DNA from: a virus
Strand: one strand, 5' to 3'
Length of the DNA stretch: 26,195 bases
Virus record (IMG/VR): IMGVR_UViG_3300025674_005971
Location: 1 to 26,195 of that record
The position numbers were made by a program, and so were the translations under genes. The notes under the pieces are model-generated. The model was not told the origin of the DNA, searched no databases, and saw only the letters and a list, made by a program, of their open reading frames with translations. Each line of letters starts with the position of its first letter. Within the stretch, counting starts at the first letter, position 1. This document shows, piece by piece, positions 6,795-25,830 of this stretch.

Positions 6795-8423
<1,629 letters not shown>

Positions 8424-8431
8424 TTATTTTC

Positions 8432-8719
8432 TTATTTTACAATTGTTAGTAATTCAGATTCCTTTACAACATAAAGGTTATCTTCATCATCAAATCGTTG
8501 GGCAGTCATTCGACTGTAATACACAACATCTCCGGGTTTACATTGCATTGCTCCATGCTCACCAGTAATTAGTAGGAGACCGGGGCCAACTGCAATTACA
8601 GTACCCTGTAGAATACCATCTTGAGATGTATCGGGGATTATAACACCACCTTGTGTTACATCCTCATGGATAGGTTGAATAACAACTCTATCTTGAATTG
8701 GTTGAAACTTTTTTTCCAT
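8432..8719 (-). CDS. groES: phage-encoded co-chaperonin GroES (Hsp10)
   Basis: The 95-residue protein begins FQPIQDRVVIQPI (the PLxDRVxV strand of GroES), then the mobile loop HEDVTQGGVIIPDTSQD (residues 18-34) with the conserved GG-hydrophobic-IP tip that docks on GroEL. It follows with GTVIAVGPG and KPGDVVYYSR, both standard GroES motifs. The length is normal for bacterial GroES and shorter than T4 gp31. It caps the GroEL ring encoded immediately downstream. The leader (minus strand, 8720-8740) is almost only A with no Shine-Dalgarno sequence, and ACTTTATATACGG about 30 bases upstream could be part of a promoter (inference). Confidence 0.97.
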   Translation of the reverse strand: MEKKFQPIQDRVVIQPIHEDVTQGGVIIPDTSQDGILQGTVIAVGPGLLLITGEHGAMQCKPGDVVYYSRMTAQRFDDEDNLYVVKESELLTIVK

Positions 8720-9642: not shown

Positions 9643-10575
9643 TTAAGTAAATTCAATGATACCCAAAATTGTTGCCATTACATTGATTTCTTTATCAATA
9701 ACAAATGTATCCTTGTACTGGGCATCAGCCAACTTTACAATAACTTCGCCTACATGTTCTCCAGCGAATTCATCCACGTTGTCATACAAAAACTTAAAGA
9801 ATGGTGTAAAGTCTTTTACTTTACTATCTGCAATAATTTGTCTGATTTTTGTAAACTTAGTTTTCGTATCACTATCCGACTTTAGAACTTGCAAACACTC
9901 ATCCATATAGTTTGCCTGTATCATTGAAGTTTTATCAATCTTCAATTTACCATCAACTACTTGTCGTTGTGCTGCGTTTAGGACTCTTCTGATATCAGGA
10001 TAACCACTATTCACCAACACACCCAAGTCTTTCACATCAAATTCAACAGACTCTTGTTGAAGAATTGTGTGTAGTCGTTTTGCTACCTCTGCTTTAGATG
10101 GTGGTGTGATACCAAACACTTGACATCTAGATTGGATTGGGTCAATAATCTTTTCTACATAGTTACACGTTAAGATGAAACGAGTAGATTTAGAGAATGT
10201 TTCCATCAGATTACGAAGTGCTGCTTGTGCATTTGGTGTGCCGAAATCCGCCTCGTCCAAAATGCAAATCTTCCATGTTCTGAACCCCATTGAACTGGCA
10301 AAGTTTTTGATTTTGGTTCTCACCGTTTCAATATTATTTTCGTCTGAAAAATTAATATACATCACATCGGCATCAATTGAATTAGCTATGATTTTTGCCA
10401 GAGTAGTTTTTCCGGTTCCAGCCGTTCCATATAACAATAGATGTGGAACATCACCAGATTCTATATATAGGCCAACTTTGTCTTTCAGTAATTCATTACC
10501 GATGTAATCATCTAAGGTTTGTGGACGATACCGCTCAGTCCAAATCGTATGTTCGGTGTTGTTTAAATTAAGCAT
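9643..10575 (-). CDS. sliding clamp loader ATPase subunit (T4 gp44-like)
   Basis: A 310-residue AAA+ ATPase. WTERYRPQTLDDYIG (12-26) is the clamp-loader N-terminal box, LLLYGTAGTGKTTLAK (47-61) the Walker A motif, KICILDEADF (about 103-112) the Walker B/DEAD-like motif, and DPIQSRCQVF the SRC arginine-finger motif. It forms the ATP-driven complex with gp62 that opens and loads the gp45 clamp. The ATG at 10575 lies 13 bases inside the end of the endonuclease gene, as expected if that gene inserted immediately upstream. Length and motifs match T4 gp44 (319 residues). Confidence 0.95.
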   Translation of the reverse strand: MLNLNNTEHTIWTERYRPQTLDDYIGNELLKDKVGLYIESGDVPHLLLYGTAGTGKTTLAKIIANSIDADVMYINFSDENNIETVRTKIKNFASSMGFRTWKICILDEADFGTPNAQAALRNLMETFSKSTRFILTCNYVEKIIDPIQSRCQVFGITPPSKAEVAKRLHTILQQESVEFDVKDLGVLVNSGYPDIRRVLNAAQRQVVDGKLKIDKTSMIQANYMDECLQVLKSDSDTKTKFTKIRQIIADSKVKDFTPFFKFLYDNVDEFAGEHVGEVIVKLADAQYKDTFVIDKEINVMATILGIIEFT

Positions 10576-11318
10576 TTATTTTTTACAGTTTCAATTGTTA
10601 ATTCATCTGACCAAATTCTTATTAAATTAAATCCTAATCGTTTAGCCAGTTCATTTTTAATTTTATCGTTTTTTCTTGTTCTAATTTGAGCCGCATCTAA
10701 TTCAGTATCTAATTTATCTTTACCATGCCAATATATACCATCGACTTCTACCAATGTATTCGTTTCAGGAATATAAAAATCATAATATTTGTTATCAACA
10801 CGGTATTGAAATATATAATCAATATTTAATTCATTCAGAATTAACTTTAATTCTAGCTCAGGGGCTGTATTATACATTGATGGTTTTTCCAAACATCTAG
10901 TTTTCATTGCACATGACCTACACATTTTTTTATTTGCATTTAATATATGAGTTTTTAACTGCACATCACTTAATTTATGCTTAGTATAATGTGTTTTAGT
11001 TGATCCACATAATTTACAAATAGATTTAAATGTATTATATTTTTTTGTTCCAAATTTTGTTTCGTGCCATTTTAATCTGCATTTACTACATGAAGTATTC
11101 CGATTATCTGCTGTATCTCTGCTCTGTCTATTCTTATATTTAATATCTGATAAACATTGTGGACATTTTCTAACATATTCAGATTCTATCGGGTATCGTC
11201 TACTACGACACGACTTACAAACTGTATTATTTTTGTTTGCTTCATTTAATGTTCTTTTTCGAGTATATGAAATCTCAATATCACACACGGGACAATTTCT
11301 AATGTATTTGTATTTCAT
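10563..11318 (-). CDS. homing-type endonuclease: three zinc ribbons plus Vsr-like nuclease domain
   Basis: A 251-residue protein with three tandem zinc ribbons of about 43 residues (cysteine pairs 9/12+34/37, 52/55+77/80, 101/104+133/136) and a C-terminal nuclease domain: Glu156, YYDFYIPE (Asp180), LVEVDGIYWHG (Glu191, Asp193, His198) and GFNLIRIWSDE. This matches the Vsr-like/EDxHD (PD-(D/E)XK type) group that includes free-standing phage homing enzymes such as I-Bth0305I. It sits between the dUTPase and gp44 genes, looks more A+T-rich than its neighbours, overlaps the gp44 start by 13 bases, and has its own upstream element (11329-11346). These traits suit a mobile gene that targets a conserved replication locus. 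The target site is unknown. Confidence 0.82.
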   Translation of the reverse strand: MKYKYIRNCPVCDIEISYTRKRTLNEANKNNTVCKSCRSRRYPIESEYVRKCPQCLSDIKYKNRQSRDTADNRNTSCSKCRLKWHETKFGTKKYNTFKSICKLCGSTKTHYTKHKLSDVQLKTHILNANKKMCRSCAMKTRCLEKPSMYNTAPELELKLILNELNIDYIFQYRVDNKYYDFYIPETNTLVEVDGIYWHGKDKLDTELDAAQIRTRKNDKIKNELAKRLGFNLIRIWSDELTIETVKNKCLI

Positions 11319-14039: not shown

Positions 14040-16529
14040 TTAAAATCCAAAAAATTTGGATGCAATTTTCAAATTTTCATTAGGGAACTCCCAATTCAGT
14101 GCCTGATAAAAGTCTTCTAACTTACCCTGCATTTCAGCATCCCAAATTTTATCGTAATCAATGTATTGTTCTATAAATTGTAGAATTTGAGGTGGGTCGT
14201 TATATCCGGTGATAGCTATTGACCCAATACCAAATGGATTTTGTTTTATATAAATCCATTTTATTTTATCCCCGTTCTTAATTGGTTCAAACTTAGAATC
14301 CAACCCAAAGTGAGATAAAAGTTTATTATATGATATAGCTGATTTTACGTGTGCTGGAGTCGCCGGTTTAAATTTACCAATAGTATTTGTTATATCATAT
14401 TTACTCAACTCCTTAACTGCTGAATTTTTCGCAATTCGAATTAATGGTTCGGATGACATGTTTGATTTGTAGTTCAATATTTTTTCATCAACATCAGACT
14501 TATCAACATTTTTCATGATATCCCACAATACAGTTTTCATAACTTCCTTGAAGTACTCAGGAAAACTACTACGTTTTACATCCAACCCCTTGACATCCAA
14601 CTTATCACATGGAACTGTATTATCATTGATAATCCATTGTGCATATCTTTTCTTTGTAACCCAGAAACCACTTTTGGCTACGGTTTCTTGTTTGATATCA
14701 AATCTATGTGAGTTGATATTAAACATACGTTTTGCCATAGTATCATAAGTTTTATTGATATGATTTTGAACCTCGGTTGCTACATCTAAGATTGCAGGTA
14801 CCATTTGTTCATCGTTATTTATATCAATATTCGGATTCCTATGTATAATGAGTGGTATTGTACTCATATAAATTGAGTCAGTATCGCTGTAAACATTATA
14901 GTCATCGGGGGTTCCAATTTGCCGTGAATAATATTGATTGGCAATCATCTCCGTTGTTTTGATGATAGTTTGCCCAGTTGCTGTTACACCAAGAGCATTA
15001 TCGACATCATAGTAGCGAAATGATTCAAGCCCCAAACAACCATACATTGAATTAAGCATAATTTTGGTGACCAACTGGCGTTGATGGTAAAACTTGTACT
15101 TGTCATCATCACCAGTGTTTCCAAACTGTTTCATCAAATCCTTATACTCAACTCGTTTTTTAAACCAAACATCCAAGATTTCAGGAATTACACCAATCTT
15201 ATCAGTTCGATATAATACACCATTGGATGATATTGAATATTTTGTATCTAATAAAAAATCATTAAATGAACTTCTATCAAGTTCTGGATATTCATTACCA
15301 TTGGTGTCAATAAGTTTATAAGATTCCATCTGCCCTTTCATATGAGAATCCATTGAAAAGTTTTCAATCATTCCAATTTTAGTTTCCGGGCTGATGTTGA
15401 TACTCATAATAATGCTTGGATATAGACTTGTTAAGTCCAAGTCATAAATCCACTTGTGTAACCCCGGTTTAGGTGGTTTAACATATGCACCCATAAAAGT
15501 ACCACCACTTTCAGTACGCTTTGGTTTATTGATGGATACCTTTTTATTTCTACGTAGAAATGTAAGAATAGCCCCCTCTAACCATTTAGATGAAAACAAA
15601 AAATCTTCATAAGCTACATGCCCAGTGTGGCAAATAGCCCTAGCCAATTCAATGAATTGTAGTTTACGTTCAAATTCCACAATCAATTCAACATCCACTA
15701 AGTTATACTCAATGAACTTTTCCAAGTCATCTCTGAATAACTGGTCCAAATTTCCATTGTATTCAACTTTGCCTCTACCCAATGTTAACTTAGCCACAGT
15801 ATCTAACCGATAATTAGGTAGTTCTGTATATGTGTAATTTTTATACAAGGACATATAATCAAGTGAAGATACCCCAGCAAAGAAATATCGTTCACGTTTT
15901 GGGTTCCATTCAACAATACCAATTGGGGACATTCGATTTGCATCATATTCCCCCAATACTCTTTTTAATCTGTTATAAAGATAATTGTTATCAAATCTAT
16001 CAATATTCCAACCAGTGATAATTGTTGGATTTACACTTTCCCAAGTAGATATAAATGCCTGCAGTAAACTTACCTCATCTCGGAAAATAGATACATTTGC
16101 CCGTTCAAGATTATATTCTGTATTAGTGTCGCCTACTACAAAAACTGTGTACTCGTTGGTTATCGAGTCGTGAAATGCGATTGATGTTATTTCATTTGTG
16201 GCTATTAGTGGGTCTGGTAATCCACTATTCATTTCAACTTCAATATCATATGTCATGATACAATGACCATCTGATACTTCATCAGAGTCACCATAGTTAT
16301 CTATGAGAAATCTAGTAATTGGATTTACATCACTTTCGAAAAGTTTGTCCTCAGAACCATATTCCCAAGAGCCAATACGTTTTAGCTTATCACCATAGAT
16401 AGATTCATATTGACCATTTGGGTCTTTTATGTAAGCATACCTTACAAACCTTTCTTTTTTGTATCCCATAGCGTCATCCCAAATATGGATTTCTTGGTTC
16501 TTTCTGTCGAAATGAATATTCTGGTAAAT
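14040..16529 (-). CDS. family B DNA polymerase (T4 gp43-like), apparent ATT start
   Basis: All key motifs are present: exonuclease ExoI MTYDIEVEM, ExoII GWNIDRFDNNY, ExoIII YNLVDVEL; polymerase motif A DLDLTSLYPSIIM, motif B KIMLNSMYGCLG, motif C YSDTDSIY, and KKRYA for the template clamp. It replicates the phage genome with proofreading. The first ATG (16469) gives 809 residues, but the frame stays open upstream: from an ATT at 16529 it reads YQNIHFDRKNQEIHIWDDA before that Met, which fits the N-terminus expected for far-T4 polymerases. No ATG, GTG or TTG lies between the in-frame stop at 16533-16535 and 16469. I therefore give the ATT start, with 829 residues; the 16469 start remains possible. 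Confidence 0.93.
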   Translation of the reverse strand: MYQNIHFDRKNQEIHIWDDAMGYKKERFVRYAYIKDPNGQYESIYGDKLKRIGSWEYGSEDKLFESDVNPITRFLIDNYGDSDEVSDGHCIMTYDIEVEMNSGLPDPLIATNEITSIAFHDSITNEYTVFVVGDTNTEYNLERANVSIFRDEVSLLQAFISTWESVNPTIITGWNIDRFDNNYLYNRLKRVLGEYDANRMSPIGIVEWNPKRERYFFAGVSSLDYMSLYKNYTYTELPNYRLDTVAKLTLGRGKVEYNGNLDQLFRDDLEKFIEYNLVDVELIVEFERKLQFIELARAICHTGHVAYEDFLFSSKWLEGAILTFLRRNKKVSINKPKRTESGGTFMGAYVKPPKPGLHKWIYDLDLTSLYPSIIMSINISPETKIGMIENFSMDSHMKGQMESYKLIDTNGNEYPELDRSSFNDFLLDTKYSISSNGVLYRTDKIGVIPEILDVWFKKRVEYKDLMKQFGNTGDDDKYKFYHQRQLVTKIMLNSMYGCLGLESFRYYDVDNALGVTATGQTIIKTTEMIANQYYSRQIGTPDDYNVYSDTDSIYMSTIPLIIHRNPNIDINNDEQMVPAILDVATEVQNHINKTYDTMAKRMFNINSHRFDIKQETVAKSGFWVTKKRYAQWIINDNTVPCDKLDVKGLDVKRSSFPEYFKEVMKTVLWDIMKNVDKSDVDEKILNYKSNMSSEPLIRIAKNSAVKELSKYDITNTIGKFKPATPAHVKSAISYNKLLSHFGLDSKFEPIKNGDKIKWIYIKQNPFGIGSIAITGYNDPPQILQFIEQYIDYDKIWDAEMQGKLEDFYQALNWEFPNENLKIASKFFGF

Positions 16530-16637: not shown

Positions 16638-17426
16638 CTACCAAAATTCAGAGTCTTGTTTTGGTGTGTGAGTTTCGTGTCTTTCAATCAAGTGATTATA
16701 GCTTGATGATGATGTTGGGTATGGTTTTAATGGGTGCTTTAATTTAGCCATAATCTGACGCTTTTCTCTCTTATCTGTGAGTATCTGTAAATACCTATGT
16801 TTGTTAGCCATAGGTTTTGTCCAAAACTCAGATATACCATTTTTACCAAGTATTGTTTTAAGTGAGGAAACACTTACAGTTCCCCACTTATCATATACAC
16901 TTCGTTCAGGTATCCATTTATGAGGATTTGTAACAGAAAGCCAATAACTAGGAATTAACTTTATATCATCACCACTCTGATATAACCAATTAGTTGCTTG
17001 ATACACTTTACCTTCATGGTCTTGTTCGGGGTCTGCGTAGCTAATTAAAACCTTTATGTTTGGCACGTTTTCCTTTAACCATCTGAATGATTGTGATATA
17101 CAATATGATTCAATGTTCGAACCATACCCATCGTGGATATACATTCGGGTTAATTCCAAGCACTCGTCATTTTCTAAATCATCTGTAATTGATTTTACAG
17201 TTAATCTACCAAGTGGAAACCCATAAACCAAACACCCTATCAACTCTTCAAAGTTACCCAACACATCGGGGTTGTCATTTTTGTAAAAAACACCCAATGC
17301 GTAACGACATGAGGTCCATGTGTGAGAATAATGATATTTAACTACCATGTTCTCAGCTACTGATTTTTTTATTTCTCGAAGTGTAACTCGCGATGTATCA
17401 CAATAAAACTTATTAGGTTCTTTCAT
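16638..17426 (-). CDS. Mom-like DNA-modification protein (GNAT fold), copy 1
   Basis: The 262-residue protein carries the Mom-family signature. It has VVKYHYSHTWTSCRYALGVF (29-48, His/Tyr/Ser cluster), LIGCLVYGFP (62-71), CLELTRMYIHDG (89-100), SFRWLKENVPNIKVLISYAD (113-131) with SYADP, and HEGKVYQATNWLY (137-149). Phage Mu Mom is a GNAT-fold enzyme that converts adenine in DNA to a carbamoylmethyl (acetamido) derivative, protecting it from restriction. The C-terminal 80 residues (PERSVYDKWGTVSVSSLK, HRYLQI) are also typical. It follows copy 2 with an ATGA overlap (17423-17426), so the two are made together. Family assignment is strong; that the enzyme modifies adenine here is inferred. Confidence 0.85.
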   Translation of the reverse strand: MKEPNKFYCDTSRVTLREIKKSVAENMVVKYHYSHTWTSCRYALGVFYKNDNPDVLGNFEELIGCLVYGFPLGRLTVKSITDDLENDECLELTRMYIHDGYGSNIESYCISQSFRWLKENVPNIKVLISYADPEQDHEGKVYQATNWLYQSGDDIKLIPSYWLSVTNPHKWIPERSVYDKWGTVSVSSLKTILGKNGISEFWTKPMANKHRYLQILTDKREKRQIMAKLKHPLKPYPTSSSSYNHLIERHETHTPKQDSEFW

Positions 17427-18211
17427 ATATCAAAAAATGTTTTGGACTTCTCATTTATTCCATATTTTTGATAATTGTGGTTGAACACATCCATGTTGAA
17501 TTTTGGCATAGGTATCACTTCAAATTTACCAGTATTAACTCGTTTTTCAAAAAGCAAATCACTTTGTTTTGGGTATGGTAGATTACCATATAAATTGTAA
17601 ACAAGTTTTCTATTTGATTTATCCAATGGGTAAATGTATCTAAACATCAATCCCCTAATTCTTGATATTTTTTTGTATTCACAAAACTCATGAGTTAACC
17701 AAAAAACCTTTGACTTACCTAGTATCTGAGCATTTTCTTTACACAACTCCTTTGCACTTCGGGGGTGTATTTTTTCACCAGTAGATTCATCGAGATATAC
17801 ATCAGTTTTAAATTTACCAATATAAATGAAATTTGATGCTTGATACACATAACCACATTTACCCATGATTCCATCAGCAAGAGTATATAGAAATTTTATA
17901 TCTAAATTTTTCTTTATCCACTTGATGAGTTGTGATAATGCATAAGACCCCCAATTAGAATTGTTTTTATCGGGGATAAAGCACATCTTACCAATTTCAA
18001 AATAATCTGCAGTGGTAAATTGTTTATTTGGAAATATCTTTTTAATGGTTTGTAAGGGTTGTGTACCCCAACCAAGCGTTACCACTCCTACTAGTTTATC
18101 ATCTTCAAAAAACCCAATATAATGTTTTGTTAACCTTGGAAGTATCTTACTATAATGATATTGTTGTATAAATGGTACTGCTAAAGACTTCGGTATCTCT
18201 TTAATCAACAT
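17423..18211 (-). CDS. Mom-like DNA-modification protein (GNAT fold), copy 2
   Basis: Also 262 residues and clearly related to copy 1: FIQQYHYSKILPRLTKHYIG (14-33), KLVGVVTLGWG (39-49), FEIGKMCFIPD (71-81) in place of LELTRMYIHD, SYALSQLIKWIKKN (89-102), LYTLADGIMG (108-117) replacing SYADP, and CGYVYQASNFIYIG (119-132). The loss of the SYAD-P motif and the ELxRM-type strand suggests altered chemistry or a different substrate. The C-terminal half (FKTDVYLDESTGEKIHPRS, RGLMFRYIYPLD) is longer than in Mu Mom. It is the first gene of the pair; the DUF5522 gene ends 7 bases upstream of its ATG. It may modify DNA bases in another way or assist copy 1. Confidence 0.75.
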   Translation of the reverse strand: MLIKEIPKSLAVPFIQQYHYSKILPRLTKHYIGFFEDDKLVGVVTLGWGTQPLQTIKKIFPNKQFTTADYFEIGKMCFIPDKNNSNWGSYALSQLIKWIKKNLDIKFLYTLADGIMGKCGYVYQASNFIYIGKFKTDVYLDESTGEKIHPRSAKELCKENAQILGKSKVFWLTHEFCEYKKISRIRGLMFRYIYPLDKSNRKLVYNLYGNLPYPKQSDLLFEKRVNTGKFEVIPMPKFNMDVFNHNYQKYGINEKSKTFFDI

Positions 18212-18218
18212 CGGTCAA

Positions 18219-18365
18219 TCATTTAATCTTAGTAGAGCCTTTCTTATGCTTTGGATTATATGGACAATGGCGGCAACCATTACCACAACAGTAACCTCGT
18301 TTCATATGATACTGTTCAGTAAAAACTACCTTACCATTGTCCATATAGTAATCCTTTGATTTCAA
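18219..18365 (-). CDS. DUF5522-like cysteine-rich microprotein
   Basis: A frame of 42 codons from the ATG at 18344, or 49 including an upstream TTG at 18365, encodes a small protein with the core VVFTEQYHMKRGYCCGNGCR followed by HCPYN. This matches the DUF5522 family (VFTxxYHLKRGYCCGNGCRHCPY), small proteins of unknown function with a CC-x3-C-x2-C cluster that probably binds a metal. The upstream residues KSKDYYMDNGK also fit the family's usual N-terminus, so I prefer the TTG start. It lies 12 bases after the ribonucleotide reductase stop and 7 bases before the Mom-like pair. It is easily missed because it is shorter than most gene callers accept. Confidence 0.8.
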   Translation of the reverse strand: MKSKDYYMDNGKVVFTEQYHMKRGYCCGNGCRHCPYNPKHKKGSTKIK

Positions 18366-18377
18366 AAAAACCCGACA

Positions 18378-20234
18378 TCAAGCAATTTCGCAACTTGAAC
18401 CAGCGCATGCCAATTCTCCTTTCAAGTCAGTTTCATCTGTGAGTTCGATTACTTTACTCAAGTCAACATCATGCAAACTTTTCATCAATCTTTCATAGTC
18501 TTCCTTTGTACAGTCCTCAAATGGGGCTTGAGTATAAGTTCCACCGTTATATGGTAAAACGGATAAACCATTGTAATTTTCACGCTCACTCCACATCCAC
18601 TCACCAACAGCATCCCAATCGCCATCTTTAATGGATACGGTAGCTGATACGTTATGGGTGTTATTTCCATTTCTATGACCCGGTACAATCCATTCTTCAG
18701 AAACTTTTTTAACACGTTCTAACAAGTCAAAACTACTCTCGGTTCTTAGAATGGCACCAGAAGGCGCTTTCTGAGGAATTGAAATAACTGCCGTATCATG
18801 TGGTCGGAAATACTCATCCTCTATAAGTTCTGGGTGATTTATTGCAAGATATGTATAAATTGCTTCATTCTTACCTACACGAATTCTACGGATGTAATAA
18901 TCATTGTGCCAAGCATGAATTCCAGAACTTGTACCAAGTGTCAATGAAGTTGTACCAGCAGGTTTCACACAAGTGGTTCTAGCTGCTGGGTTGATACCAA
19001 TGAGATTTGCCACTCTTTCATTTTCATCTTTCACAACATTTGCAGCTTTACTCATATCATATCCAAGTACCACACCACTTCCAATACCTGTCATACTAAC
19101 GCCAATCAAAGCGTCCTTTTCAGTTGTACGTTGCCATATTGGTCTAAGATAGTGAAAATCGGTATATCCAGCTTGTAGAGTTCCAATAAACGCAGCTGCC
19201 TTAACACGAGTATTAAGGTCTTCTTGTGATTCAATATTACTTACGTTCACTTCTGTTAGATTACAGAACTGATATGGACGAAGTGCGATTTCGCAGCAAG
19301 GGTTTGTACCCCAATCCTTATCATTTGATAAATAGATACCCGGTTCTCCAGCTCCAGAAAGTTCAACACGTTTCCATATATCCATAAAGAACTTTTTGGT
19401 TATACGATGTCTCATCAAAACTGCCGAATTGTTAGCTCTACCACGTTGTGGGTTCTTCTCCCACCAATGGCCACTTTTACAAGAAATCATGTCATCATCA
19501 TCGGCAGAGAATAATGAGATAAGTGCGGCTCTGCGGATTCCACCCGCCAATACAGCATCAGCAATATAACAAACAATATCATGAACTTCAATTGGTTTTA
19601 GTTTTTCTCCATCTTGTTTTTCTGAAAGAATTCCTTCTACTTTAATCAAACATTCCTTTAATGGTTGTGGTCCGGGGGCCTTACCACCACTTGTAACAAG
19701 TCTAGCACCCTTTGGGCGAATATCACTAAAATCGAATTTGATTTTACTACCACCATATAAGTAACTCTTAATTAAAACCTTAACCGAATCGGCCCAACCC
19801 TGAATGGAATCATCAATTAAAAATCTACGTGTTCTGTTTATATTTGGTTTACGAATTTCGGGTAATTTTTCTACATGGTGTTTTTGAACACTATAACCTA
19901 CGCCAGTACCTCCCAAAAGTAAAAACATAATTTCACTAAAAGAACGCCAATCATCAATTGGTAGATACGCACAATTGTAAACTCTATTTGGACTAATTTC
20001 AATAGCCTTACCGGCAAACTGCATACTACGCATTGAGGGTAAAACCTTTTTGTCATACACCAATTGATACACACTTTCAATTTCATCCCGTAAATCTGGA
20101 TATTTCTTGATATGCATTTCTTTGTTTCGGTCTACCAATTCCTCCCATGTTTCCCGTCTATTCAACTCGGGGATATACTTGGCGTACTTCATATACACCG
20201 TAATGTCTGATAAAATTTTATTTGATAATTCCAT
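18378..20234 (-). CDS. nrdJ: adenosylcobalamin-dependent (class II) ribonucleotide reductase
   Basis: The 618-residue enzyme reduces ribonucleotides to deoxyribonucleotides for phage replication. Active-site residues align with the Lactobacillus RTPR type: redox Cys88 in VYNCAYLP, the NPCCEIALRPYQFCN segment with Asn311, thiyl Cys313, Glu315 and redox partner Cys324, and the C-terminal pair Cys610/Cys615 in ACAGSSCEIA that passes electrons from thioredoxin. The substrate and specificity loops contain SDIRPKGARLV and GGKAPGPQPL. No N-terminal ATP-cone is visible, so overall activity control is probably absent. It needs no oxygen but depends on vitamin B12 from the host. It starts at 20234, about 29 bases after a TGATATTTATA element, and ends 12 bases before the DUF5522 gene. 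Confidence 0.95.
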   Translation of the reverse strand: MELSNKILSDITVYMKYAKYIPELNRRETWEELVDRNKEMHIKKYPDLRDEIESVYQLVYDKKVLPSMRSMQFAGKAIEISPNRVYNCAYLPIDDWRSFSEIMFLLLGGTGVGYSVQKHHVEKLPEIRKPNINRTRRFLIDDSIQGWADSVKVLIKSYLYGGSKIKFDFSDIRPKGARLVTSGGKAPGPQPLKECLIKVEGILSEKQDGEKLKPIEVHDIVCYIADAVLAGGIRRAALISLFSADDDDMISCKSGHWWEKNPQRGRANNSAVLMRHRITKKFFMDIWKRVELSGAGEPGIYLSNDKDWGTNPCCEIALRPYQFCNLTEVNVSNIESQEDLNTRVKAAAFIGTLQAGYTDFHYLRPIWQRTTEKDALIGVSMTGIGSGVVLGYDMSKAANVVKDENERVANLIGINPAARTTCVKPAGTTSLTLGTSSGIHAWHNDYYIRRIRVGKNEAIYTYLAINHPELIEDEYFRPHDTAVISIPQKAPSGAILRTESSFDLLERVKKVSEEWIVPGHRNGNNTHNVSATVSIKDGDWDAVGEWMWSERENYNGLSVLPYNGGTYTQAPFEDCTKEDYERLMKSLHDVDLSKVIELTDETDLKGELACAGSSCEIA

Positions 20235-24782: not shown

Positions 24783-25793
24783 TTATTCAGAAATCAAAAT
24801 TTTATTTTGAATTTTTTGATATTGTATTAAAGATTGTTCTTTCATCTTTGCTTCAACCATTACATCAATGTCATGCCCATAATCATTGATTGGGCCCATT
24901 ATGTAATCACTATGAGCTTGTTCTTTAGTTTTACAGTATTGATTATACACTTTTGAAAGGGTTGGCCAACTGGGTAGTTCGTCCATACTGATGTTGTTTT
25001 TTCTACACAACTCTTCAATGACTAGTTTTTGTTCAACTCTGCGTGATTCTGAGTAATGAGTACATGGTTTGCAATTCCACGTACTGATTGCAAGTTGGAG
25101 AGCCTCTTGTTCGGTAAGTCCACCAGTACAAAATTTGTGATGGTAATAATCAAACACAATAGGAATACCAATAACTTTGTGAATGCCGTCATACAAATCA
25201 ACAACAGAATACATACTAGCTTTGTCATCGTTTTCTACAGTAAGACGTGCTTGTGTATGTGGGTGTAGTCGTTTGAAGTTTTCACAGAATCTTTGAAGAG
25301 CAGATTGTTTGTCACCATATGCACCTCCCACATGGATATTGATTTTAGCCATATTAGATTTTGGTAGACCCATCATATCCATAATCTGTGAATGCTTGTC
25401 TAACTCATCAATAGAACGATTAACAACATCTTCGTTAGGTGATGCCAATACACAAAATTGACCGGGGTGAAAACTCAATCTATGCCCGTGATTTTGGGCA
25501 AATTCTCCAGCCTCTTTGAGAATAGAATGTATACTCTCATAATCAGGTAAATCGGTAAATTGATATTCACTCATCCACGGAAATATACCACTACTCATAC
25601 GATAGAGCGGTACACCGTTATCAATATTCCATTGAATGATACGTTTAAGGTCGGTTACGTTTTTTAGAGCCAATTCGGACACGTATGAAAGACCACGTTT
25701 ATCAAATGTTTTACGAATCATACTGCGATTCGTGTGTATTCCTTGCTTACCTAGAGCAAGGTTAATACAAGCATAACCTAGTTGTAGAGACAT
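24783..25793 (-). CDS. uvsE: UV-damage endonuclease (UvsE/UvdE family)
   Basis: The TIM-barrel UVDE signatures are clear: LGYACINLAL at the N-terminus, PLYRMSSGIFPWMSEY, HRLSFHPGQFCVLASP with a metal-binding His, KINIHVGGAYGDK, ARLTVENDDKASM (metal-binding Glu), IPIVFDYYHHKFC and CTHYSESR. The enzyme nicks DNA on the 5' side of UV photoproducts and some other lesions, using divalent metals. I chose the ATG at 25793 (MSLQLGYACIN), giving 336 residues; a TTG at 25829 would add 12 residues that lie over a palindrome and T-run. It is upstream of gp32 and lies just after an inverted repeat. Confidence 0.92.
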   Translation of the reverse strand: MSLQLGYACINLALGKQGIHTNRSMIRKTFDKRGLSYVSELALKNVTDLKRIIQWNIDNGVPLYRMSSGIFPWMSEYQFTDLPDYESIHSILKEAGEFAQNHGHRLSFHPGQFCVLASPNEDVVNRSIDELDKHSQIMDMMGLPKSNMAKINIHVGGAYGDKQSALQRFCENFKRLHPHTQARLTVENDDKASMYSVVDLYDGIHKVIGIPIVFDYYHHKFCTGGLTEQEALQLAISTWNCKPCTHYSESRRVEQKLVIEELCRKNNISMDELPSWPTLSKVYNQYCKTKEQAHSDYIMGPINDYGHDIDVMVEAKMKEQSLIQYQKIQNKILISE

Positions 25794-25807
25794 TGATGTA
25801 ATGATAC

Positions 25808-25830
25808 AAAAAAGAGTTGATAATATCAAC
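25808..25830 (-). terminator. inverted repeat followed by a T-run: possible terminator or operator
   Basis: The minus strand reads GTTGATATTATCAAC (25830-25816), a nearly perfect palindrome, followed by TCTTTTTT. As RNA it can form a 5-7-base-pair hairpin with a short loop and a U-run, so it may end the transcript of the gene upstream. It lies 15-37 bases before the uvsE ATG, so a palindromic operator is another option. The stem is A+T-rich and weak. Confidence 0.4.

Follow-up and report, generated by a model that had tools for sequence, protein, structure and literature searches.

A bacterial virus record of 26,195 bases, analyzed here in its entirety and referred to as the window, carries two adjacent genes of the Mom DNA modification family within a cluster of replication genes. 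The two genes overlap in the same orientation, their products match Mom by profile and by predicted fold and keep the serine whose replacement inactivates Mom of phage Mu, purifying selection acts on both genes, and the tandem slot that they occupy recurs in related phages. On balance, we read the pair as a two-gene anti-restriction cassette encoding two complete, separately acting Mom enzymes of different specificity. Mom itself, its GNAT fold, and its role in anti-restriction are already known (e.g., PMC7824862, PMC6483171). The literature searched, which excludes most subscription journals, yielded no account of Mom genes in tandem or of the EIGKM subfamily, to which one of the two proteins belongs.

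The gene pair and its genomic setting

The pair and its immediate neighbors all lie on the minus strand. The upstream Mom is called MomB and the downstream Mom MomA2:

14040..16469, minus strand: family B DNA polymerase (gp43-like), downstream flank (Pfam/PHROG matches, synteny)
16638..17426, minus strand: downstream Mom, MomA2 (copy 1 of the initial annotation), ELTRM/SYADP, 262 aa (PF25680, 156.5 bits)
17423..17426, minus strand: ATGA overlap, with the MomA2 start on the MomB stop (sequence)
17423..18211, minus strand: upstream Mom, MomB (copy 2 of the initial annotation), EIGKM/T.ADG subfamily, 262 aa (PF25680, 193.4 bits)
18219..18365, minus strand: small Cys-rich DUF5522 ORF just upstream of the cassette, start codon uncertain (PF17653, E 2.9e-20)
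18378..20234, minus strand: ribonucleotide reductase, class II-like, upstream flank (Pfam/PHROG matches, synteny)

The initial annotation, made from the DNA letters alone, had described two 262-residue reading frames joined by an ATGA overlap, both with a YHYS motif followed later by VYQATN or VYQASN. All of these features were recovered in the window pair: the frames occupy exactly 16638-17426, with ELTRM and SYADP as described, and 17423-18211, with EIGKM and TLADG, and they overlap by 4 nt. The EIGKM gene, MomB, is the upstream member and is translated first; the ATGA overlap suggests that translation of MomB and MomA2 is coupled. The two proteins share only ∼24% identity over 230 aligned columns (31% over 140 aa by BLASTP). 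Because MomA2 falls in another clade and has 24% identity to MomB, the pair is not the product of a recent duplication within the window phage, an origin that we ruled out on these grounds and on the strong support for the separate clades.

The location of the pair between DNA polymerase and ribonucleotide reductase genes, also described previously, was confirmed, with the addition that the DUF5522 ORF sits between the pair and the reductase. The window encodes a T4-like replication set comprising the family B polymerase, gp32, UvsX, a DnaB-type helicase, a gp45-like clamp, clamp-loader subunits, and the ribonucleotide reductase (18378-20234), which was best matched to class II, or B12-dependent, models. 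The suggestion that this setting favors DNA modification also held, in that both proteins are predicted Mom-family GNAT enzymes encoded within a replication gene cluster. In phage Mu, by contrast, a single mom gene follows com at the genome end, whereas the window has two Moms in the replication cluster and lacks a Com-like activator upstream of the pair. The small Cys-rich ORF had been a candidate for such a regulator, matching Com in size and position; it was rejected on finding that it is DUF5522 and follows a class II reductase gene. In relatives, the DUF5522 ORF adjoins RNR_II and was not seen where RNR_II is absent. A Cys-rich DUF5522 protein of 40 to 48 aa is encoded directly downstream of the class II reductase gene in L173-L176, L187, L195, L201, L204, and other loci. 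Judged by this distribution, the ORF is context rather than a member of the cassette, traveling with the class II reductase, and its product is possibly a reductase-linked small protein.

Elsewhere, the window encodes GroEL-like and GroES-like chaperonins (6795-8420 and 8432-8719), the former ∼50% identical to the GroEL of Flavobacterium phages immuto, as well as a homologue of the UV-endonuclease UvdE (24783-25829) and a Vsr/DUF559-like endonuclease with zinc-ribbon-like Cys pairs (10563-11318).

Family membership and active-site residues

Profile searches and fold prediction alike place the two window proteins in the Mom family. Their scores in the profile search of the Pfam Mom family (listed above) compare with a curated cut-off of 27.1 bits, and PHROG 1384, "Mom-like DNA modification protein," matched both (E 3e-45 for MomA2 and 2e-39 for MomB). 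AlphaFold models of MomA2 (pLDDT 89.8) and MomB (pLDDT 88.9) each found Mu Mom (P06018 / NP_050657; PDB 8bv8) as the best PDB fold match in Foldseek, with probability 1.00 and E values of 1.2e-13 and 1.4e-12, respectively; the next GNAT fold matches for both models reached only ∼1e-4 to 1e-5. The same structure, the sole Mom of known structure that we found, was also the top PDB sequence match for both proteins. The initial annotation had proposed comparing predicted structures with Mu Mom and had allowed that copy 2, MomB, might turn out to belong to an unrelated GNAT family. Mu Mom was the top match for both copies, ruling out that placement of MomB.

Active-site comparisons follow the numbering of the 241-residue annotated Mu protein, which places the 8bv8 mutation at S124; our source for the inactivating serine is the title of that PDB entry, "Mom inactive mutant S124A." Although neither window protein exceeds ∼27% identity to Mu Mom, the Pfam family and predicted fold are common to all three. 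In the alignment with Mu Mom, the family-wide residues H58, Y59, E108, D149, Y159, N163, and Y217 were found, and equivalents of the first six and of N121 and S124 are present in both window proteins. In MomB, the Mu equivalents are H19/Y20 (H58/Y59), E72 (E108), K75 (R111), N86 (N121), S89 (S124), T110 (S146), D113 (D149), Y123 (Y159), N127 (N163), H149 (H183), and Y192 (Y217); in MomA2, they include R94 (R111), S107 (S124), D132 (D149), and Y142 (Y159). The inactivating-serine position is therefore S89 in MomB and S107 in MomA2, and serine was likewise found there in 58 of 60 MomB homologues (the other two have Thr) and in all 55 upstream and 57 downstream copies from tandem pairs.

MomB departs from Mu Mom by Lys at R111, Thr at S146, Gly at E150, and Lys at R154, and MomA2 by Pro at H183. 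The first of these Mu residues, the Arg of ELxR, is a hallmark of all non-EIGKM Moms; it is retained in MomA2 and is Lys in MomB and in 60/60 MomB homologues. This Arg/Lys difference appears to separate subfamilies without excluding MomB from the family, as MomB outscores MomA2 on the Pfam model. At H183, where His is found in 223 of 225 aligned Moms, MomB has His149 and MomA2 has Pro at 173, so that the window's departure from the family pattern is in MomA2, not MomB. The P173 codon, CCT, differs at a single position from the His codon CAT of a 56-kb relative (L003), and P173 is also encoded by an identical contig (L001). Lacking one near-invariant His in one strain, MomA2 is still, by its sequence, a Mom family member; if either window copy is damaged, it would be MomA2 rather than MomB. 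In the comparison with L003, dN/dS was 0.07 for MomB (98% protein identity) and 0.245 for MomA2 (87% identity), and both genes are therefore under purifying selection.

Distribution of the two Mom types

Scanning viral contigs with MomB yielded 80 loci, from which 60 distinct homologues were aligned with Mu Mom. All 60 have E-I-G-K-M, Thr at S146, Ala-Asp at 148-149, Gly at 150, and Lys at 154, giving an invariant EIGKM...T[LMW]ADG signature that differs from Mu-type Moms by R111K, S146T, E150G, and R154K; D149, Y159, and Y217 are kept in every one. The MomB clade is monophyletic with tree support of 1.0. These results do not support the earlier view of the pair as an altered copy 2 beside an intact Mu-type copy 1: EIGKM/T.ADG marks a clade of its own, in which it is fixed and whose members normally occur alone. 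MomB as a degenerate copy was likewise ruled out by the signature's invariance (60/60) together with its dN/dS of 0.07.

MomB was usually the only Mom of its contig, as in large contigs of 67 kb (G005), 61 kb (G024), 64 kb (G032), 73 kb (G042), and 129 kb (G044); it was likewise the sole Mom in the records of Edwardsiella phage ET-ABTNL-9 and of Methylophilales phage Melnitz. Because IMG/VR contigs are mostly fragmentary, solitary occurrence is secure only in the larger contigs, whose completeness is not stated. Of the nine contigs that reach 50 kb or more, two have another Mom besides MomB, as does Psychrobacter phage vB_PmaS_Y8A, a co-occurrence that is no more than suggestive, the samples being small and related. 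In L009, whose MomB is 68% identical to that of the window, MomB lies upstream of class I reductase genes, followed by a SYSDP-type Mom (48% identical to MomA2).

The MomB homologues of phages Y8A (OQ059336) and ET-ABTNL-9 are 64 to 67% identical to window MomB. The ET-ABTNL-9 gene is unannotated (MN399336.1, 71886-72629), and the Melnitz homologue is labeled DUF465 (MZ577097.1, 69571-70380). Y8A, which has been cultured, carries Moms of two types, MomB (39393-40157) and a Mom of the Mu-like clade (7125-7778); unlike the window pair, they are not in tandem, being separated by ∼32 kb in the coordinates of the record. The published description of Y8A names one Mom only (PMC10434257). The second, WBF05279.1 (OQ059336.1, 7125-7778), is annotated as a hypothetical protein, scores 187.9 bits with PF25680, and carries ELNRM and SFADG; its gene (L159, 2126-2779; L158, 1486-2133) adjoins a ParB/sulfiredoxin-domain gene.

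Beyond phages, a single scan of genome contigs detected MomB in 19 loci, mostly named as Lachnospiraceae and other Clostridia, at 55 to 58% identity to the window copy (L241-L259; e.g., L242, 9929-10759, and L253, 9962-10804). A second Mom type was seen in 0 of the 19 loci within the DNA fetched around each. Neighborhoods were inspected in a few of these loci, and those were conjugation-type, with neighbors that encode a TraG/VirB4-like ATPase, a protein of the NlpC/P60 kind, a mobile-element protein resembling CD1107, and mobilization proteins of the NikA/MobC type (L242). At L253, a C-5 cytosine DNA methylase gene lies immediately upstream of MomB. From gene content, at least several of the 19 loci appear to be conjugative elements, and such neighborhoods are where a conjugative element would be expected to carry an anti-restriction enzyme. 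Two EIGKM-type Moms are encoded in [Clostridium] symbiosum and two in Clostridium porci.

For MomA2, a search with an alignment of its relatives retrieved 80 viral loci, of which 75 were testable, having 800 bases or more of upstream sequence. A second Mom lay just upstream in the same direction in 55 of these 75 IMG/VR loci. The search for tandem copies in related phages, another check proposed at the outset, thus found pairs in most loci; the contrast that had been drawn with Mu and its single Mom is real, but pairs are not unusual, being the majority arrangement among MomA2 relatives in IMG/VR. Contigs with pairs were up to 245 kb long, with two Moms in most cases and three in L163, L172, and L187. 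The upstream partner is of the SYSDP type in 54/55 pairs; in the window, the EIGKM type, MomB, occupies its place. The tandem-upstream SYSDP clade is monophyletic (support 1.0), and the tandem-downstream clade that includes window MomA2 has support of 0.89. Clustered at 80%, the downstream clade contains ∼14 lineages besides that of the window, about ten of them with a tandem, and therefore does not represent one over-sampled phage. The loci counted here are phylogenetically non-independent.

In most pairs checked, the genes overlap by 11 to 17 nt or are 4 nt apart, and in the others they are separated by a gap of ∼170 to 420 nt. The gene order UvsX - exonuclease - DnaB - RNR - Mom pair - PolB - gp45 - gp44 - gp62 is shared with the window, whose two adjacent, co-oriented Moms lie between the reductase region and PolB as in the T4-like tandem cassette. 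Pairs of uncultured T4-like phages (e.g., L160, L163, L171, and L221) resemble that of the window in having overlapping or adjacent Moms at this location and a downstream gene in the MomA2 clade (46 to 60% identity), and differ in their upstream SYSDP, as opposed to EIGKM, type. With MomB as its upstream partner, the window pair is a variant of the tandem Mom cassette of T4-like phages.

Core residues are kept nearly throughout the 55 upstream and 57 downstream tandem copies. Upstream and downstream copies nevertheless carry distinct signatures, A148S in all 55 of the former and His-Tyr-Thr in 49 of the 57 latter. One sub-clade, accounting for 7 of the 57 downstream copies (L199, L200, L221, L222, L224, L227, and L228), has Asn at the otherwise invariant D149 (SYANN) while the upstream partner keeps Asp; these D149N proteins could be candidate pseudo-enzymes beside an intact partner. 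The MomA2 type was also found alone, in contigs of 238 kb (G063) and 175 kb (G073). Each subfamily, whether MomB, MomA2 type, or SYSDP type, also occurs without the others. Several of these phages encode an additional group of short Moms of ∼205 to 225 aa, mostly with ELRRL (e.g., L147, 3992-4660; L163, 13310-13945; L187, 5283-5903; L234; and L236-L238).

The closest cultured relative of MomA2 is the Mom of Polaribacter phage P12002L (YP_009209713; 46.9% identity). Unlike the window pair, it is a lone Mom, with a SYSDP motif, and adjoins an annotated DNA methyltransferase. Jumbo phages encode Mom-endonuclease fusions, and Mom-family domains occur in phage conflict systems (PMC7824862); both window Moms, in contrast, stand alone without a fused nuclease. 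A 565-aa protein of a close relative (G002; L144, 5386-7080) combines a Vsr-like nuclease region with a weak C-terminal Mom match (24.8 bits, below the cut-off) and resembles these fusions.

Explanations for the tandem arrangement

In the favored explanation, MomB and MomA2 would each hypermodify phage DNA on their own, presumably at adenine by analogy with Mu Mom. Different specificity is likely because each gene belongs to a long-separated subfamily with its own fixed active-site signature; judging from these signatures, the two enzymes most likely differ in sequence context, in the group transferred, or in both. Co-translated from overlapping genes in the replication cluster, they would together place marks that protect against more restriction systems than one enzyme could.

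Among the alternatives, the one that survives best, though we consider it unlikely, is a heterodimer in which the two proteins share one enzyme or divide into catalytic and specificity subunits, the overlapping genes ensuring equal amounts. Mu Mom is among the experimentally supported dimers (PHROG 1384, TM-score 0.88, ipTM 0.88; PMC13232217), the genes overlap or almost touch in most pairs, and the seven D149N downstream copies sit beside partners that keep the Asp. However, core residues are kept by both partners in nearly all pairs, and the presence in the window of MomB, at 24% identity to MomA2, in the place of the other type makes a specific co-evolved interface unlikely. The initial annotation had offered a heteromer as one option; its obligate form is disfavored because each Mom type occurs singly and the upstream partner has been exchanged for that of another clade.

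Less likely again, the two proteins may make the same modification, the pair serving redundancy or gene dosage. They have family, predicted fold, slot, and core residues in common, but the differences near the active site are invariant within subfamilies (R111K, S146T, E150G, and R154K in MomB; A148S in all upstream tandem copies), and diverged clades have been retained together in tandem over the long term. It is also improbable that a single copy works, with MomB as the modifier and MomA2 decaying or repurposed. Pro replaces the near-invariant His in MomA2, and relative to L003 its dN/dS is higher and its identity lower than those of MomB. Against this, the MomA2 frame is intact, its dN/dS is well below 1, L003 keeps the His, and DnaB gave a similar ratio (0.229) in the L003 comparison, with a divergence that suggests recombination. 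In this strain, window MomA2 may nevertheless be impaired, given P173 and its weaker constraint. That MomB is a GNAT acting on a protein, the nucleotide pool, or RNA instead of DNA is very improbable. In favor are the missing Arg of ELxR and the changed ADx motif. Against it, Mu Mom is a better match to MomB than other GNATs are, in both fold and sequence; MomB keeps Ser at the Mu S124 position and other core residues; and it occurs in phages and conjugation-type neighborhoods, in one case next to a DNA methylase, locations that suit an anti-restriction enzyme.

Two separately acting enzymes thus remain our preferred reading. More tentatively, EIGKM Moms may differ from Mu-type Moms in the group that they transfer or in the donor that they use, in which case phages with tandem pairs would carry two chemically different hypermodified bases and Moms would be interchangeable modifiers in a layered anti-restriction code of phages and conjugative elements.

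Accounts of Mom generally center on one enzyme, that of Mu, whose chemistry is puzzling. In the present analysis, diverged Moms in pairs prove to be an established feature across a large group of T4-like phages, and the EIGKM subfamily, with its fixed and different signature, spans phages and Clostridia mobile DNA. These natural active-site variants offer a way to probe the donor and sequence specificity of Mom, and Psychrobacter phage Y8A is a cultured phage that offers a second, unannotated Mom for study. If the paired enzymes do mark different sites or form different adducts, phages would stack DNA modifications as their hosts stack restriction systems.
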